Source: Marnyiella aurantia (lineage in GTDB: Bacteria; Bacteroidota; Bacteroidia; Flavobacteriales; Weeksellaceae). Taken from it: a stretch of 64,000 nt of DNA. Of this stretch, positions 648 to 58,550 are shown in pieces. Below the pieces are notes generated by a model. That model ran no database searches and was not told the origin of the DNA. It saw only the letters and a program-made list of their open reading frames with translations. The DNA lies in the NCBI RefSeq assembly GCF_014041915.1, contig NZ_CP059472.1:1488001-1552000 (forward strand), written 5' to 3'. Position numbers and translations under genes: made by a program. Each line of letters opens with the position of its first letter. Position 1 is the first letter of the stretch.

Positions 648-1616
648 ATGTCAAGAATCCTAACCGGAATCCAGGCTACCGGAACGCCCCATTTGGGCAA
701 TTTACTCGGAGCCATCATTCCAGCTGTCGAACTCTCCAAAAAAGCGGAGAACGAGTCTTTTCTGTTTATTGCGAACATGCACTCGCTGACGCAGATAAAA
801 GATGCTGAAGAACTGAGAAGAAACACTTACGAAATTGCGGCTGCCTGGTTGGCCTGCGGACTGAATACCGACAAAACTTATTTCTATCGCCAAAGTGATA
901 TACCGGAGGTTTGCGAACTTTCCTGGTACCTGTCCTGCTTCTTCCCGTATCAGCGCCTTACACTTGCACATTCATTTAAAGACAAAGCAGACCGTCTTGC
1001 CGACGTGAACGCCGGTTTATTTACCTATCCTGTGCTTATGGCCGCAGATATCTTGCTCTACGATGCCGAAGTAGTACCAGTAGGCAAAGATCAGCTGCAA
1101 CACCTGGAAATGGCAAGAGATATGGGCGCCCGATTTAATAATCAGATGGGTGAGGTTTTTGTGCTGCCGCAGGCTGAGTTGCAGGAGGACACCAAGTATG
1201 TTCCCGGCATCGATGGCCAGAAAATGTCCAAATCCAGGGGGAATATAATCAATATATTCCTGCCGGAAAAACAGCTTAAAAAACAGATCATGGCCATTGA
1301 AACGGATTCCAGATCGCTGGAGGAGCCAAAGGATCCTGCGACGGACAAAATTTTCGCCATCTATAAGCTGATAGCAACTCCGGAAGAAACTTCAGCACTT
1401 GAAGAAAAGTACCTGGCAGGTAACTTCGGTTACGGACATGCAAAAAATGCCCTCCTGGAACTTATCCTGACCAAATTTGCGCGTGAAAGGGAACTTTTCT
1501 CTTATTATATGAACAACCTGCCGGAGCTGGATCAGAAATTGAAGGAAGGCGCGGAAAAAACAAGGAAAATTGCCGCAAATACACTGCAGAGAGCCAGGCA
1601 AAGCCTGGGCATATAA
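648..1616 (+). CDS. trpS: Tryptophanyl-tRNA synthetase
   Basis: Class I aminoacyl-tRNA synthetase that charges tRNA-Trp in the cytoplasm. The HIGH-type signature is HLGN at residues 15-18 and the KMSKS loop is present exactly at residues 192-196. The 322-residue length is normal for bacterial TrpRS. The ATG at 648 gives the expected short N-terminus (MSRILTGIQATG), so this start is well supported. It lies just behind lspA and may share its transcript. Confidence 0.97.
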   Translation: MSRILTGIQATGTPHLGNLLGAIIPAVELSKKAENESFLFIANMHSLTQIKDAEELRRNTYEIAAAWLACGLNTDKTYFYRQSDIPEVCELSWYLSCFFPYQRLTLAHSFKDKADRLADVNAGLFTYPVLMAADILLYDAEVVPVGKDQLQHLEMARDMGARFNNQMGEVFVLPQAELQEDTKYVPGIDGQKMSKSRGNIINIFLPEKQLKKQIMAIETDSRSLEEPKDPATDKIFAIYKLIATPEETSALEEKYLAGNFGYGHAKNALLELILTKFARERELFSYYMNNLPELDQKLKEGAEKTRKIAANTLQRARQSLGI

Positions 1617-1671
1617 GTGTCCGGGAACGACTAATATCTATCTTAAAAATAAAAAATAACTAAAACCCTTA

Positions 1672-2046
1672 ATGAAAACAAAAAATCTACCTTTTCTGAT
1701 CTTAATCGGAATGTCTTCCGTATCCTGTGCAACTATACTAACAGGTACAAGTGATGATGTGTCATTCAAGTCTGAGCCGGCTGGTGCTACGGTATTTGTA
1801 AAAAATATTGAAAAATGCCAAACCCCATGTATTGTCAGCGTACAGCGCACACTATCCAAGTCTACCGCTGAGATTAAACTCGACGGATATCAGGATCAGA
1901 GTGTTAAACTTGAAAAAACCTTCAATCCGGTAAGCCTTGTAAACATCCTTATCGGGGGCGCTATTGGCGTGGCTGTAGATGCTGCAACAGGCTCTCTTAC
2001 GAAATACCAAAAGAAAACCTATGAGGTAAAGATGGAAGCTAACTAA
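1672..2046 (+). CDS. Small lipoprotein with PEGA-like domain
   Basis: Predicted 124-residue lipoprotein of unknown function. The signal peptide ends in a lipobox with the acylated Cys at residue 19 (SSVSC). The mature part carries a PEGA-like stretch (VSFKSEPAGATVFVKN, then a TPC segment and a LDGYQDQ segment), a beta domain found in surface proteins. A Gly/Ala-rich hydrophobic segment (about residues 90-108) follows, and the C-terminus is basic. A strong hairpin terminator follows 14 bases after the stop. The domain call rests on motif resemblance only. Confidence 0.75.
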   Translation: MKTKNLPFLILIGMSSVSCATILTGTSDDVSFKSEPAGATVFVKNIEKCQTPCIVSVQRTLSKSTAEIKLDGYQDQSVKLEKTFNPVSLVNILIGGAIGVAVDAATGSLTKYQKKTYEVKMEAN

Positions 2047-2060
2047 CAACCTTTATGCTT

Positions 2061-2098
2061 AAAAAAATATCCTTTCTTTCGGAAGGATATTTTTTTTT
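2061..2098. terminator. Bidirectional intrinsic terminator
   Basis: Near-perfect inverted repeat (arms 2061-2076 and 2081-2096, core ATATCC / GGATAT, loop TTTC) with an A-run on its left and a T-run on its right. It can end the PEGA-like lipoprotein gene on the plus strand and the HAD gene on the minus strand. Confidence 0.85.
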
Positions 2099-2109
2099 GG
2101 TAAAACATT

Positions 2110-2805
2110 CTAAAGCAGCTGTTTCAATTCGGACAGATGCTGTATCACCACTACACCGTCTGCAGTATATTTATCATCAAATACATCAAAGAATATCACC
2201 TTCAGGCCAAATGCTTTTCCTCCCTCCACATCGGCCACCCAGTCATCACCGATCATCATAGATTGATCTACGCGGGCGCCCGCTTTATTTAATGCATGGG
2301 CATAGATTTCGGGATTTGGCTTACGGATGTTAAGCTCATCGGCACTGGTAATGGTTGCAAAGTAATTCCTGATGCCGGACAGTTCGCATTTCCTGTGAGT
2401 AACTTCTTCAAAACCATTGGACAGGATGTGCAGGGTATAGCCTTTATCAGACAGATATTCCAGGAGCTGAAAGGTGCCGTCCACCAGGTCATTATAATTC
2501 AGGATCTCATCCAGGAAATTATGCTCGAATACCTGCGCCAATTCAAAATCGTCTATACCAAAAAATAGAAATGAATCGTAGAAACGGTGCTTCCTGAGAT
2601 GCTCCTTATCAATCTCGCCGTCGCGGATCTGGGCCCAAAGTCTTTCGTTGATCGTAAAATATTCTTTATGGAATTCTTCGAAGCCTATACTGTAGCGCTC
2701 CTGTACCCTTTCCCTGGAATAAATTTCCTTTAAGGTAAGGTATGCGTTTCTGCGGTGATCCCACAGGGTATTATCGAGGTCAAAAAAAATGTGCTGCATT
2801 TTCAT
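2110..2805 (-). CDS. HAD-superfamily hydrolase, YjjG-type nucleotidase-like
   Basis: Cytoplasmic phosphatase of the haloacid dehalogenase family, most like noncanonical pyrimidine nucleotidases (YjjG type). Motif I is FFDLDNT near the N-terminus (nucleophile Asp), motif II is HILSNGF, motif III is the Lys in RKPNPEIY and motif IV is IGDDWVADVEGG. All catalytic elements are intact, with an alpha-helical cap between motifs I and II. I chose the ATG at 2805, which leaves MKMQHIFFDLDNT; a frame extension to 2814 only adds three residues. The substrate is not evident from the sequence. Confidence 0.85.
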   Translation of the reverse strand: MKMQHIFFDLDNTLWDHRRNAYLTLKEIYSRERVQERYSIGFEEFHKEYFTINERLWAQIRDGEIDKEHLRKHRFYDSFLFFGIDDFELAQVFEHNFLDEILNYNDLVDGTFQLLEYLSDKGYTLHILSNGFEEVTHRKCELSGIRNYFATITSADELNIRKPNPEIYAHALNKAGARVDQSMMIGDDWVADVEGGKAFGLKVIFFDVFDDKYTADGVVVIQHLSELKQLL

Positions 2806-3016
2806 ACAGCACAAAATTAAGGTTTTGAAATCAGTTTCGTGAAACTGCTACCATTTTAGTTGCGGTCTTAAGGACAGCAATGCTTTTTGAGAAGCTAAGA
2901 AGAAAGCTAACTGTTTCTTTTTTTGGCTTTGGAAGTTTAGCGTTTAAAGTGTCATTTTTTTTCATAGGCTGAAGGACTTGGTTTACCTGAAAAACGCTGC
3001 AACTCCGAAAATATTG

Positions 3017-3607
3017 CTACCGGGTAAGAATAATGCGGTTTTCCTCCATGATTTTTCTCAGGTTAATAAGCGCATAACGTACGCGTCCCAACGTTGTATT
3101 AATGCTACTGTCTGTCTGATCTGCAATTTCTTTAAAGCTAAGACCGTCAAAGAACCGAAGTCTGATGACTTCCTGTTGATTTTCCGGCAGATATTCCAGA
3201 AGCTTAAAGAGGTCACTGTGGATCTGCTGGGTTACCAGGCGCTCCTCAATATTCTCCTCCTGCTCACGGATCAGATCAAAGATGGAAAACTCCTCATTGT
3301 CATAAGAGGTCTCTGAAACTTTGTTGTGTTTCGCTTTCAGTCTGTAATGGTCGATGATTAGGTTATGCGAGATACGCTTGGCCCAAAGGATGAACTTGCC
3401 TTCTTCATTGTATTTGCCGCCTTTAAGGGTAACAATGATTTTCATAAATGCATCCTGGAAGATGTCATTTGCCAGATCCGAGTCCATTACCTTATAGAAT
3501 ATATAGGAATATAGCTCGCTCTGGTGCCTTTCAATAAGTATGGCCAGCGCTTTTTCGTCACCCGCCTGATACTTTGATATTAGTGAACTGTCTGATATAG
3601 ATTTCAT
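3017..3607 (-). CDS. ECF-type RNA polymerase sigma factor
   Basis: Sigma-70-family alternative sigma factor of 196 residues. Region 2 is seen in the DLANDIFQDAFMKI stretch and in FILWAKRISHNLIIDHYR (core binding and -10 recognition). Region 4 is LLEYLPENQQEVIRLRF followed by the helix-turn-helix SFKEIADQTDSSINTTLGRV (-35 recognition). An acidic linker separates them. No anti-sigma factor or FecR-like gene is adjacent: the next minus-strand gene downstream is the HAD phosphatase about 210 bp away. This argues for a free-standing sigma factor rather than a FecIR-type signalling pair. Confidence 0.9.
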   Translation of the reverse strand: MKSISDSSLISKYQAGDEKALAILIERHQSELYSYIFYKVMDSDLANDIFQDAFMKIIVTLKGGKYNEEGKFILWAKRISHNLIIDHYRLKAKHNKVSETSYDNEEFSIFDLIREQEENIEERLVTQQIHSDLFKLLEYLPENQQEVIRLRFFDGLSFKEIADQTDSSINTTLGRVRYALINLRKIMEENRIILTR

Positions 3608-3778: not shown

Positions 3779-4267
3779 TCAATTCAGAAGATCGTGTATT
3801 AGCACCGTAGGAACATTGAATGTAACATTAACGTTTAAACCTTTCATTTCTTTGCCGTTTAATCCTTTGTCACCAAAAGGAAATGCATAACCACCGGTCA
3901 GATCTATCAGGCCAAATAAACTGAAACCAATCTTCGGAGCGATATACTTACTTGTCAGCTCGGCCCCGCTCAGGAAATAATACGAGTGATACAGATCCAC
4001 ATTTCGTTCAAAATTTACAAGGATGTCACCCTGCACCTTAGGTAGCACAGCAAATTTTCCATCTACCGAACCGAGCATTGCCCCGGCTCCCAGCCTGAAA
4101 ATAAAATCATCATTTTTAAGGAAAAGAAGTTTACCTCCCAATTCTCCAAAACTACCATTCTGATACACATACCCTGCGCTTACCAGTTTATGCACTGTTA
4201 ACTGCGCTCTATATAAACCCGAGCAAAACAGAAGCAGGATAAGGGAACCAAAGATCTTTAATTTCAT
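3779..4267 (-). CDS. Secreted barrel-like protein, function unknown
   Basis: Small 162-residue exported protein. An N-terminal signal peptide (MKLKIFGSLILLLFCSGLYRAQ, cleavage likely after the RA-Q junction) is followed by alternating hydrophobic and polar residues rich in Gly, Tyr and Phe, such as VYQNGSFGELGGKLLF and LFGLIDLTGGYAFPFG. This resembles a small outer-membrane beta-barrel. The last residue is Asn, not the usual terminal Phe of barrel proteins. I do not recognise a named family. Confidence 0.6.
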   Translation of the reverse strand: MKLKIFGSLILLLFCSGLYRAQLTVHKLVSAGYVYQNGSFGELGGKLLFLKNDDFIFRLGAGAMLGSVDGKFAVLPKVQGDILVNFERNVDLYHSYYFLSGAELTSKYIAPKIGFSLFGLIDLTGGYAFPFGDKGLNGKEMKGLNVNVTFNVPTVLIHDLLN

Positions 4268-56755: not shown

Positions 56756-56889
56756 TTATTTAAGGTTTTTGACCTTAGCATGGATTATAAATTGCCGCTG
56801 ATACATGCTGAAAGTCAGGAGGGTTTTCTCAGCGGGGATAGGTGCAGTTGCTTATTATTTGGTATAAACTGATATACCTTTAACTAAAT

Positions 56890-57075
56890 TTAATATTTAA
56901 TAAAAATGCCAACAATAATGCCTAGCGGAACCAAAAAAAGACCAGCATAGCTGTTCTTGGCATCTTCCACTTGTGGATTAGTATTATAGGCTTCTCCCAT
57001 TTTTTTTGAGTTAAGATTATAAATAAAAATCCATCTTATAAATGCGCCAAATGCGCCAAAAACAAATCCCACCAT
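56890..57075 (-). CDS. Putative small membrane protein, unknown function
   Basis: 61 residues from the ATG at 57075 (MVGFVFGAFGAFIRWIFIYN), with two hydrophobic segments, the second near the C-terminus (AGLFLVPLGIIVGIFIKY). The frame is open to 57135, but the first residues of that longer version come from the repeat unit at 57105-57154, so I prefer the inner start. I see no family. Confidence 0.4.
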   Translation of the reverse strand: MVGFVFGAFGAFIRWIFIYNLNSKKMGEAYNTNPQVEDAKNSYAGLFLVPLGIIVGIFIKY

Positions 57076-57104: not shown

Positions 57105-57154
57105 CCCCGCTGCGCAAAGTCCCCACGCTGCGCAAAGTCTCCTGACTTTGAGCC
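57105..57154 (+). repeat. Palindromic repeat, copy A with partial tandem unit
   Basis: A partial unit (CCCCGCTGCGCAAAGT, 57105-57120) followed by a full one to 57154 ending CTGACTTTGAGCC. The core CAAAGTC-TCCT-GACTTTG is an inverted repeat. It covers the 5' end of the longer frame of the small minus-strand ORF. Confidence 0.85.
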
Positions 57155-57439
57155 TTTCCAAATATCTTCTTGCTCGAAAGAACATGAATGATTTAATCCT
57201 TTTAGTAAAAAATTAAAAAATTGTACTGTATTTAAGGGAACCACCAACTATTTCAAACAGGTTTTGTAAGAGCCGGCTTTGATCAAAGATAATGATTTAT
57301 GAAATGTTAAGAAATGAAATTTGCTCAAAGTCGGGAGACTTTGCGCAGCGGGGAGGGGGCGCTATCGGTAGTTCACATGGAAAAACTATATTTACAAACT
57401 GCCAAAAAAATAGACCACTTACCCCAGATAGACACAATT
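57136..57439. other. Repeat-bearing gap before the CPBP gene
   Basis: About 300 AT-rich bases between the short membrane ORF and the preferred CPBP start. It contains the end of repeat copy A and all of copy B. I see no other gene and no convincing TAnnTTTG box. Confidence 0.6.
57323..57354 (-). repeat. Palindromic repeat, copy B (inverted)
   Basis: Begins GCTCAAAGTCGGGAGACTTT and runs on to GCGCAGCGGGGA: the reverse complement of the unit at 57121-57154, with one different loop base (CCC instead of CCT) and small changes at the GC-rich end. It overlaps the N-terminus of the longest frame of the CPBP gene. Confidence 0.85.
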
Positions 57440-58297
57440 ATGTTTAATAACAAAAAGAATAATTATCTTCTAAAAATTGGTGCAGGAGTTTTTTTCTGCA
57501 CCAGTATTTTATATTCTCTTATTAATTATTACGATGAAAGATTATTTGAAAGTACAGATAAGATTGGTGACCTAGACTCTGTTTATTCTGTAATATTCTT
57601 CATCTTATTAATAGCACCTGTATTTGAAGAATTGGTTTTCAGAGGATATTTTTTAAAAAATAAAATTTTTATTTTTATCTTTTATCTCGGAGTAGCATTA
57701 TCTATCTGGATGACAGGAACTTATTATAGTTTGATTTTGCTTTTAATAATAGGCCTCTTAGAATTCGGCTTAAAAATAAAAAAACATTCTAGAATAATGT
57801 TTTTTTTAAATGCTTTATTATTTTCATTGGTTCATTATAAAATTTCGGAGTTTACAAACCTTTACAGTATAGTGCCAGTATTTTTTCAATTCAGCCTAGG
57901 ATTAATATTGATTTGGATTGCGATTAACTATAACCTATATAAATCAATGCTTTTTCACTTTTGTATTAATTTTTTTATTATTGGAAGTCTTATTGCAGCT
58001 CTACAGTTTCCGGATTCCAATATAGAGGTTATACAACACGATGAAACTGTTTTAACCTTCCAAAAATCACCCATTTTTTCATCAAAAAATGGCATAACGA
58101 CCAATTCTGAAATTACTTCAAATGGCAGTACAATAAGAGAGTTTGCAAACACAGCAAAAGTTCCTAAAAATAATTATTCAATTAATGATAGTTTGCGGTT
58201 TTTCAGGTATAATTTAAAGATAAAAAATACGAAAGGAGGTAAAATTGAAAGTAAAGAAGCAGAGAATATTCTAAGAAAAGCAAAATTAATTGAGTGA
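57440..58297 (+). CDS. CPBP-family intramembrane protease
   Basis: 285 residues from the ATG at 57440 (MFNNKKNNYLLKIG). Abi/CPBP motifs are present: FEELVFRGYF (EExxxR), FSLVHY and HFCINFF. About seven membrane spans are seen, followed by a hydrophilic Ser/Thr/Asn-rich tail (about residues 215-285). Two longer starts exist (57314, 57377), but the first lies inside repeat B, so it is unlikely. The gene is markedly more AT-rich than its neighbours and is flanked by inverted repeat copies B and C, which suggests acquired DNA. Role unknown; relatives include prenyl proteases and bacteriocin-immunity proteins. Confidence 0.82.
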   Translation: MFNNKKNNYLLKIGAGVFFCTSILYSLINYYDERLFESTDKIGDLDSVYSVIFFILLIAPVFEELVFRGYFLKNKIFIFIFYLGVALSIWMTGTYYSLILLLIIGLLEFGLKIKKHSRIMFFLNALLFSLVHYKISEFTNLYSIVPVFFQFSLGLILIWIAINYNLYKSMLFHFCINFFIIGSLIAALQFPDSNIEVIQHDETVLTFQKSPIFSSKNGITTNSEITSNGSTIREFANTAKVPKNNYSINDSLRFFRYNLKIKNTKGGKIESKEAENILRKAKLIE

Positions 58298-58413
58298 TAA
58301 ATATTTGAATGCCATTTCAAATTCCTTTTACGCATGCTGACTGCCAACTGTGCGCTAAATGTCTAGACTATTGAGCCATTATCATTGAACATACAATTAT
58401 CGGTTTCCCAATT

Positions 58414-58447
58414 CCCAACGCTGCGCAAAGTCTCCTGACTTTGAGCC
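58414..58447 (+). repeat. Palindromic repeat, copy C
   Basis: CCCAACGCTGCGCAAAGT then CTCCTGACTTTGAGCC; nearly identical to the full unit of copy A (57121-57154), one base different near its 5' end. It lies on the far side of the CPBP gene, opposite in orientation to copy B. Confidence 0.85.
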
Positions 58448-58550
58448 GCTCATTCATCATAGTTGTTATATTTTCAAAACTTATTCCTGTTCAACACTTA
58501 CCAAATCTGCACTATAAATCCATCGCAGGAAAATTAATCTGTCGAAATTA

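Follow-up and report, generated by a model that had tools for sequence, protein, structure and literature searches.

REP-type repeats between thiL and yqeY of Marnyiella aurantia as the very probable ends of a flavobacterial RAYT transposable unit

The window analysed here is a stretch of 64,000 nucleotides of Marnyiella aurantia, whose genome (G000) comprises 2,613,493 bases (2.61 Mb). Its thiL-yqeY gap region carries three full copies of a palindromic repeat (REP) within 1.3 kb, as the initial annotation had reported. They are confirmed at 57126-57153 (plus strand, 0 mismatches to the 28-nt consensus), 57323-57350 (minus strand, 1 mismatch) and 58419-58446 (plus strand, 0 mismatches). A fourth, decayed copy lies at 56807-56834 on the minus strand, with 5 mismatches (4 in the orthologous copy of the sister genome G001). 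Copies 1 and 2 are the left and right ends of a miniature REP-REP unit, an inverted pair of 247 bp (57106-57352) in which no gene is recognised and which aligns to two copies in G001 at 94-95% identity. These two copies are 96% identical to each other; one is orthologously placed and the second is found some 860 bp beyond, past a different gene. Just past this second unit, a stretch of about 30 bp from the 3' end of thiL recurs (L096, about 3899-3928), as if flanking DNA had been copied along with a REP. At the left end of the window unit, positions 57106-57125 (plus strand) hold a conserved C head and an 18-bp tandem duplication of the 5' part of the REP. Repeat letters are thus indeed present where a partial fourth copy had been proposed, but they are better read as a duplication inside the left REP because G001 has an undivided REP there. 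At the right edge, the window copy and both G001 copies agree through ...GCGCAGCGGG and then all diverge, so that similarity stops at the outer edge of the REP. The inner flank of copy 2 resembles either the 5' end (compared with L016 and L097) or the 3' end (compared with L167 and L158) of units that carry a RAYT transposase gene. A RAYT origin of the whole interior was considered and set aside, as only its ends match RAYT units.

Two genes accompany these repeats. A CPBP (Rce1-like) intramembrane protease gene occupies 57434-58297 on the plus strand (PF02517, 30.0 bits, cut-off 22.4), as a neighbour outside the miniature unit. It is AT-rich, as first described: its G+C content of 26.6% is below that of every 864-nt stretch of the window sampled at 50-nt steps. 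A small ORF of about 61 codons, membrane-protein-like by eye, lies at 56890-57075 on the minus strand within a 644-bp stretch that is 94% identical to G001, and has no Pfam or NCBIfam match. The reported overlap of the first repeat with the 5' end of this ORF is an artefact of an upstream-extended ORF call, the likely start being 57075 (minus strand). An overlap between a repeat and the CPBP ORF was rejected on the same ground; the likely start is 57434 (plus strand), and homologues align from residues 6-9 of that version, the query having begun at 57434.

The third REP belongs to another unit. Together with its inner flank it is 74-85% identical to the 3' ends of intact RAYT units among the eight best matches. 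Directly beside it, positions 58450-58497 (minus strand) match L167 in blastn at 83% over 48 nt and read NKF*KYNNYDE* in translation, where intact RAYT proteins end in FWKYNNYDE or similar. Copy 3 is therefore read as the 3' boundary of a RAYT unit, now decayed, that stretched away from the CPBP gene, and REP and RAYT relic together span 58419-58497 (relic on the minus strand). A search of G000 turned up no intact cognate RAYT. Its sole match to the cognate profile at E <= 1e-20 covers 62 residues of the N-terminus and lies at 2246.7 kb, with two REPs just upstream of it and a broken REP about 340 bp further on, and the two PF01797 matches of the genome (842 kb and 2154 kb) are distant from the REP clusters. 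The elements in the window are most likely relics.

The REP is a 28-nt hairpin, CGCTGCGCAAAGTCTCCTGACTTTGAGC, with a conserved 5' head CCCGCT. Its stem consists of seven pairs, a G/A mismatch and two further pairs, closed by a loop TCC(T/C); a mismatch in the stem is also found in E. coli REPs. Ahead of the stem stand a C-run and CGCT, with C at position -1 in 51 and at -2 in 46 of 60 distinct contexts (<=5 mismatches). The 13-nt end GCTGCGCAAAGTC matches the window eight times at <=2 mismatches, compared with 1.27 expected (at least eight in 0 of 100 shuffles), and all four exact matches fall within this REP region. The hairpin core alone is a weak signal (seven window matches at <=3 mismatches, 4.0 expected, and seven reached in 7 of 100 shuffles); its three perfect matches in the window all lie in the REP region as well. 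Genome-wide, at <=2 mismatches, the core is not enriched, with 22 matches per strand versus 32 for the reversed control. The full 28-nt unit at <=3 mismatches, by comparison, occurs six times in G000 (three copies in the window, one at 390 kb and two at 2246 kb) and its reversed control not once. A search of the whole genome and of relatives had been recommended. Among 99 genomes, 14 carry the unit, G000 included (13 of the 98 others), at 0-12 copies per genome at <=3 mismatches, and the reversed pattern matches in none. Folded as single-stranded DNA, 57121-57154 reaches -8.0 kcal/mol, a value equalled in 0 of 200 shuffles. Among 65 of 111 distinct copies (<=3 mismatches), which were picked by likeness to the consensus so that intact pairs are favoured, 95.7% of stem cells are paired and in four of the nine pairs both partners have changed (10 cells versus 2.3 in shuffles, with 0 of 500 as high). 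The imperfect palindrome is kept by selection on pairing.

In relatives, REPs lie on both sides of a Y1_Tnp transposase gene of about 200 codons (G056, G002 and G049) or beside one (G003). Two of these ORFs, both from relatives, score 94.4 and 94.0 bits against the NCBIfam model REP_Tyr_transpos (NF047646, cut-off 80), and 21 and 24 bits against the IS200 model NF033573, below its cut-off of 55. A profile (A1) built from five such RAYT proteins matches at E <= 1e-20 in 20 of the 99 genomes, G000 included. Full-length RAYTs (E < 1e-120) number five, in four genomes; the other matches are more distant or broken. REPs at <=3 mismatches stand on each side of four of the five, and by eye the fifth (G003) has one REP that is split by a short loop insert. 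Counted as raw genome numbers, with kinship ignored, REP and A1 occur together in 12 genomes, the REP without A1 in two (G012 and G040), A1 without the REP in eight and neither in 77. A full-length cognate RAYT is present in four of the 12 genomes with both, and in the rest the match is diverged or broken. In a wider set, a strong flanking inverted repeat (score >=16, a cut-off set by the analyst) is found at 61 of 75 RAYT loci compared with 2 of 75 in the reversed control; these 75 derive from 80 named loci, three of which were left out of the table and two had insufficient flank. With the 28-nt REP at <=6 mismatches, 25 of 72 RAYT ORFs carry it on both sides (units of 683-862 bp), 19 on one side and 28 on neither; in five of the 72 the available flank on one side was shorter than 170 nt. 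Many of the REP-negative ORFs are Flavobacterium loci with a variant repeat that the 28-nt consensus misses. The HUH histidines are nearly invariant (H60 in 71/72, H62 in 72/72), as are N59 (71/72), W122 (72/72) and Q123 (68/72), and the putative catalytic tyrosine, assigned by motif, is Y143 (72/72). Searches of solved structures (E <= 0.01) and phage records (E <= 1e-20) gave no match, PHROGs matched neither RAYT nor CPBP, and the plasmid search returned four records, all below 60% identity. A separate arrangement is seen in Flavobacterium rhamnosiphilum (L195), where two full RAYT genes lie 2 kb apart within a dense array of partial repeats.

Comparison of related units indicates how far their similarity extends. 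Among 21 RAYT units, 40 pairs reach 80% identity or more across 550 nt or more. In 11 of these pairs similarity stops within 10 nt of the outer REP edge at both ends; counted singly, the right end does so in 35 pairs and the left end in 13, and in the remaining pairs the left end of similarity is mostly inside the unit. In two pairs similarity continues more than 40 nt beyond an edge: L173 and L181 have 3.1 kb of left flank in common, and 91-99 bp past one edge are common to both copies in G056. The two Chryseobacterium formosus copies, at 95.2% identity, end at -3 and +3. Unit L090 of G056 and L168 of C. normanense (contig 12; Cloacibacterium) are 98.0% identical with ends at -4 and +2, their flanks have no DNA-level stretch longer than about 80 bp in common, and C. 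normanense has a copy of 87% identity at the orthologous locus, L172, whose flanks match at 89-93%. Two Flavobacterium units (L185 and L188) are 85% identical and end at -3 and +3. The Flavivirga loci L174 and L225 have 741 bp at 95% in common and nothing else of at least 60 nt, with a left flank of L174 of only 261 nt; L225 has a broken ORF and stands outside the 72-ORF set. L161 and L162 have a gene in common at 77% within 2 kb and may therefore be one locus. Two full copies occur in four of 21 genomes searched (G056, G335, G344 and G350), in three of them within about 5 kb of each other. Shortened forms exist as well. G002, which we take to be Chryseobacterium sp. MFBS3-17, carries on different contigs a full unit and a deletion derivative that lacks about 450 bp of the middle and is 93% and 97% identical at its ends, and a comparable derivative lies in C. 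formosus, with a full copy to either side. Deletion derivatives are also a feature of IS200/IS605 elements. For the G002 derivative, the one unit examined in this respect, no clean empty site was resolved because several of the searched genomes have its two flanks in separate locations. Judged from these alignments, REP-RAYT-REP seems to move as a unit.

A longer duplication was seen in G049, taken as Kaistella soli DKR-2. Here, a 2.1-kb block with small genes and C-terminal RAYT remnants is present twice at 97.5% identity (L094, 2929-5039; L095, 1529-3654). One of its borders is within 4 nt of the outer edge of a REP and the other about 230 bp beyond a REP.

The thiL-yqeY gap itself is a turnover site. 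Measured between the two genes, it comes to 3.3 kb for G001 and 1.9 kb for G000; G014 has 1.4 kb, G002 and G003 about 1.1 kb each, and G026 about 0.1 kb. A comparison across relatives had been suggested at the outset, and the region does vary: a metallophosphatase gene (PF00149, 54 and 53 bits, cut-off 21.5) fills the gap in the genus mates G002 and G003 and aligns with the gap of G014, and a REP-bearing island replaces it in G000 and G001. The CPBP gene was found in one of 59 genomes searched, namely G000, and is absent from three genus mates; among 296 genomes of the family it occurs in 11, G000 included, the closest other homologue being 54% identical.

Taken together, the repeats are very probably REPs that form the ends of a transposable unit of Flavobacteriia with a RAYT (single-strand, HUH/tyrosine) transposase, which would have moved into the thiL-yqeY gap, with the CPBP gene turning over separately. 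The suspicion in the initial annotation of REP-type elements or miniature mobile units is borne out by copies elsewhere, by inverted pairs around RAYT genes and by the RAYT remnant beside the third copy, and the proposed search for RAYT-type transposases yielded intact genes between inverted REPs in relatives in addition to the fragment and remnant in G000. In mechanistic terms, single-stranded DNA bearing the hairpin would have been the substrate of the RAYT, which would have cleaved it next to the CCCGCT head and transferred segments ending in REPs, whether full-length or shortened, to positions between genes. Units of this kind would have entered the thiL-yqeY gap before G000 and G001 split, and the neighbouring content of the gap, CPBP included, would have turned over on its own. 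Counting against this explanation are the 28 of 72 RAYT ORFs without a REP, the occurrence of REPs without a RAYT match in G012 and G040 and of the reverse in eight genomes, the restriction of full-length cognate RAYTs to four of the 12 genomes with both, copy numbers far below those typical of REPs and the interior of the miniature unit, which is not clearly RAYT-derived.

That the REPs formed a composite mobile cassette which brought CPBP into the site, close to what was originally proposed, appears improbable. The sporadic distribution of this very AT-rich gene, its absence from the three genus mates and the end of G001 similarity at the REP edge beside it would all suit such a cassette, as would the G049 block, where other genes are present twice with one end near a REP edge; that block, however, overruns its other REP. 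REPs do flank CPBP in opposite orientation, but they belong to two different units, the right one decayed, and both turn their outer ends toward the gene, the reverse of real RAYT units. None of ten other CPBP loci has a REP within about 1.5 kb at <=6 mismatches. CPBP as REP-borne cargo was rejected on this orientation and on the REP-free loci; the gene lies outside both units and was therefore probably acquired separately, at a site that REPs had already marked. The REP-bearing site may still have attracted it, since its accessory genes differ between G000 and G001. It is scarcely credible that the hairpins are transcription terminators or mRNA-stability hairpins rather than mobile ends. They are strong and lie outside recognised genes, which suits that reading, yet inverted pairs bracket a transposase gene in 25 units of 683-862 bp, a 5' head outside the stem is conserved and the sequence persists from genus to genus in few copies.

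An unlikely but more serious contender is that multiple copies arose by local tandem duplication and recombination between REPs, without transposition of the unit. It would fit the closeness of both copies in three of the four two-copy genomes, the stretch in common past one edge of the G056 copies and the partial end copies that stand in tandem in G339 and clustered in G345. Against it stand the identity limited to the unit at different places for L090 and L168 (98%) and for the Flavivirga pair (95%, with the short left flank of L174), and the location of the full G002 unit and its derivative on different contigs. A bolder version of the RAYT-unit reading, to which we lend slightly less than even credence, holds that the flavobacterial RAYT with its two REPs is a self-mobile insertion sequence that still transposes whole and sheds miniatures, a living state ancestral to the domesticated proteobacterial RAYTs.

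The arrangement resembles the REPtron of E. coli, Pseudomonas and Stenotrophomonas (RAYT/TnpAREP with REPs) as far as the accessible text of the sources describes it: a Y1/HUH gene between inverted imperfect hairpins, a short conserved 5' head, doublets in opposite orientation and copies elsewhere in the genome (PMC2817692, PMC6006769). It departs from the REPtron in its head, CCCGCT instead of GTAG (a GTAG or CGTC end tag is absent), and in its few copies: usual REP numbers exceed 100 per genome according to the accessible part of PMC2817692, a level that neither G000 with six nor the 99 genomes with 0-12 attain. It also departs from it in units that look bounded and relocated whole. Movement of a RAYT as a unit is denied or not found in the accessible portions of PMC2817692, PMC6006769 and PMC8049555, and a single copy is given as the usual state of a RAYT in that of PMC8266576; judging by their alignments, the seemingly bounded and relocated flavobacterial units differ from this published picture. 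Another likeness is to TnpAY1 subclass 2.6 (group 5 in the table) of Quentin 2018, described in the accessible text as found in Bacteroidetes, with NH[LIV]H and WQ motifs, REPs without GT[AG]G and non-GTAG secondary structures that flank the genes and recur elsewhere in the genome, a likeness by description rather than by hairpin letters (PMC6006769). Its tyrosine motif is given there as YIH[QN]NP, unlike the mostly YIHLNP observed here (L in 61 and Q in 1 of 72 ORFs). A single-strand HUH transposase and palindromic ends are in common with IS200/IS605 elements in so far as the accessible accounts describe them, unlike which the protein fits the RAYT model and falls below the IS200 cut-off, the ends are inverted terminal repeats and copies are few. 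No paper was found that prints the REP letters, though the supplement of PMC6006769 may contain them, and none with both RAYT and Flavobacterium as whole words.

Several REPs lie next to accessory genes. A ZorA/ZorB-like pair (PADLOC E 3e-54 and 2e-52) at L015 (545-2399; contig C1 of G000, 388.5-390.4 kb) starts about 70 bp from a REP, where the sister G001 (L097) has, in the same flank, three REPs together with different small genes. At L102 of G028 (1283-3022), a GmrSD-type gene (PF03235, above cut-off) directly adjoins a REP, as does a gene with a HEPN match below cut-off. Taken with the ZorAB-like pair, this gives a hint that accessory or defence sites may be marked by REPs. Of ten proteins from REP loci submitted to PADLOC, three matched (ZorAB-like and GmrSD-type systems) and seven did not. 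If flavobacterial units move whole, sparse REPs may mark sites of accessory-gene turnover, and the step from an insertion sequence to a domesticated gene would become testable with living pairs.
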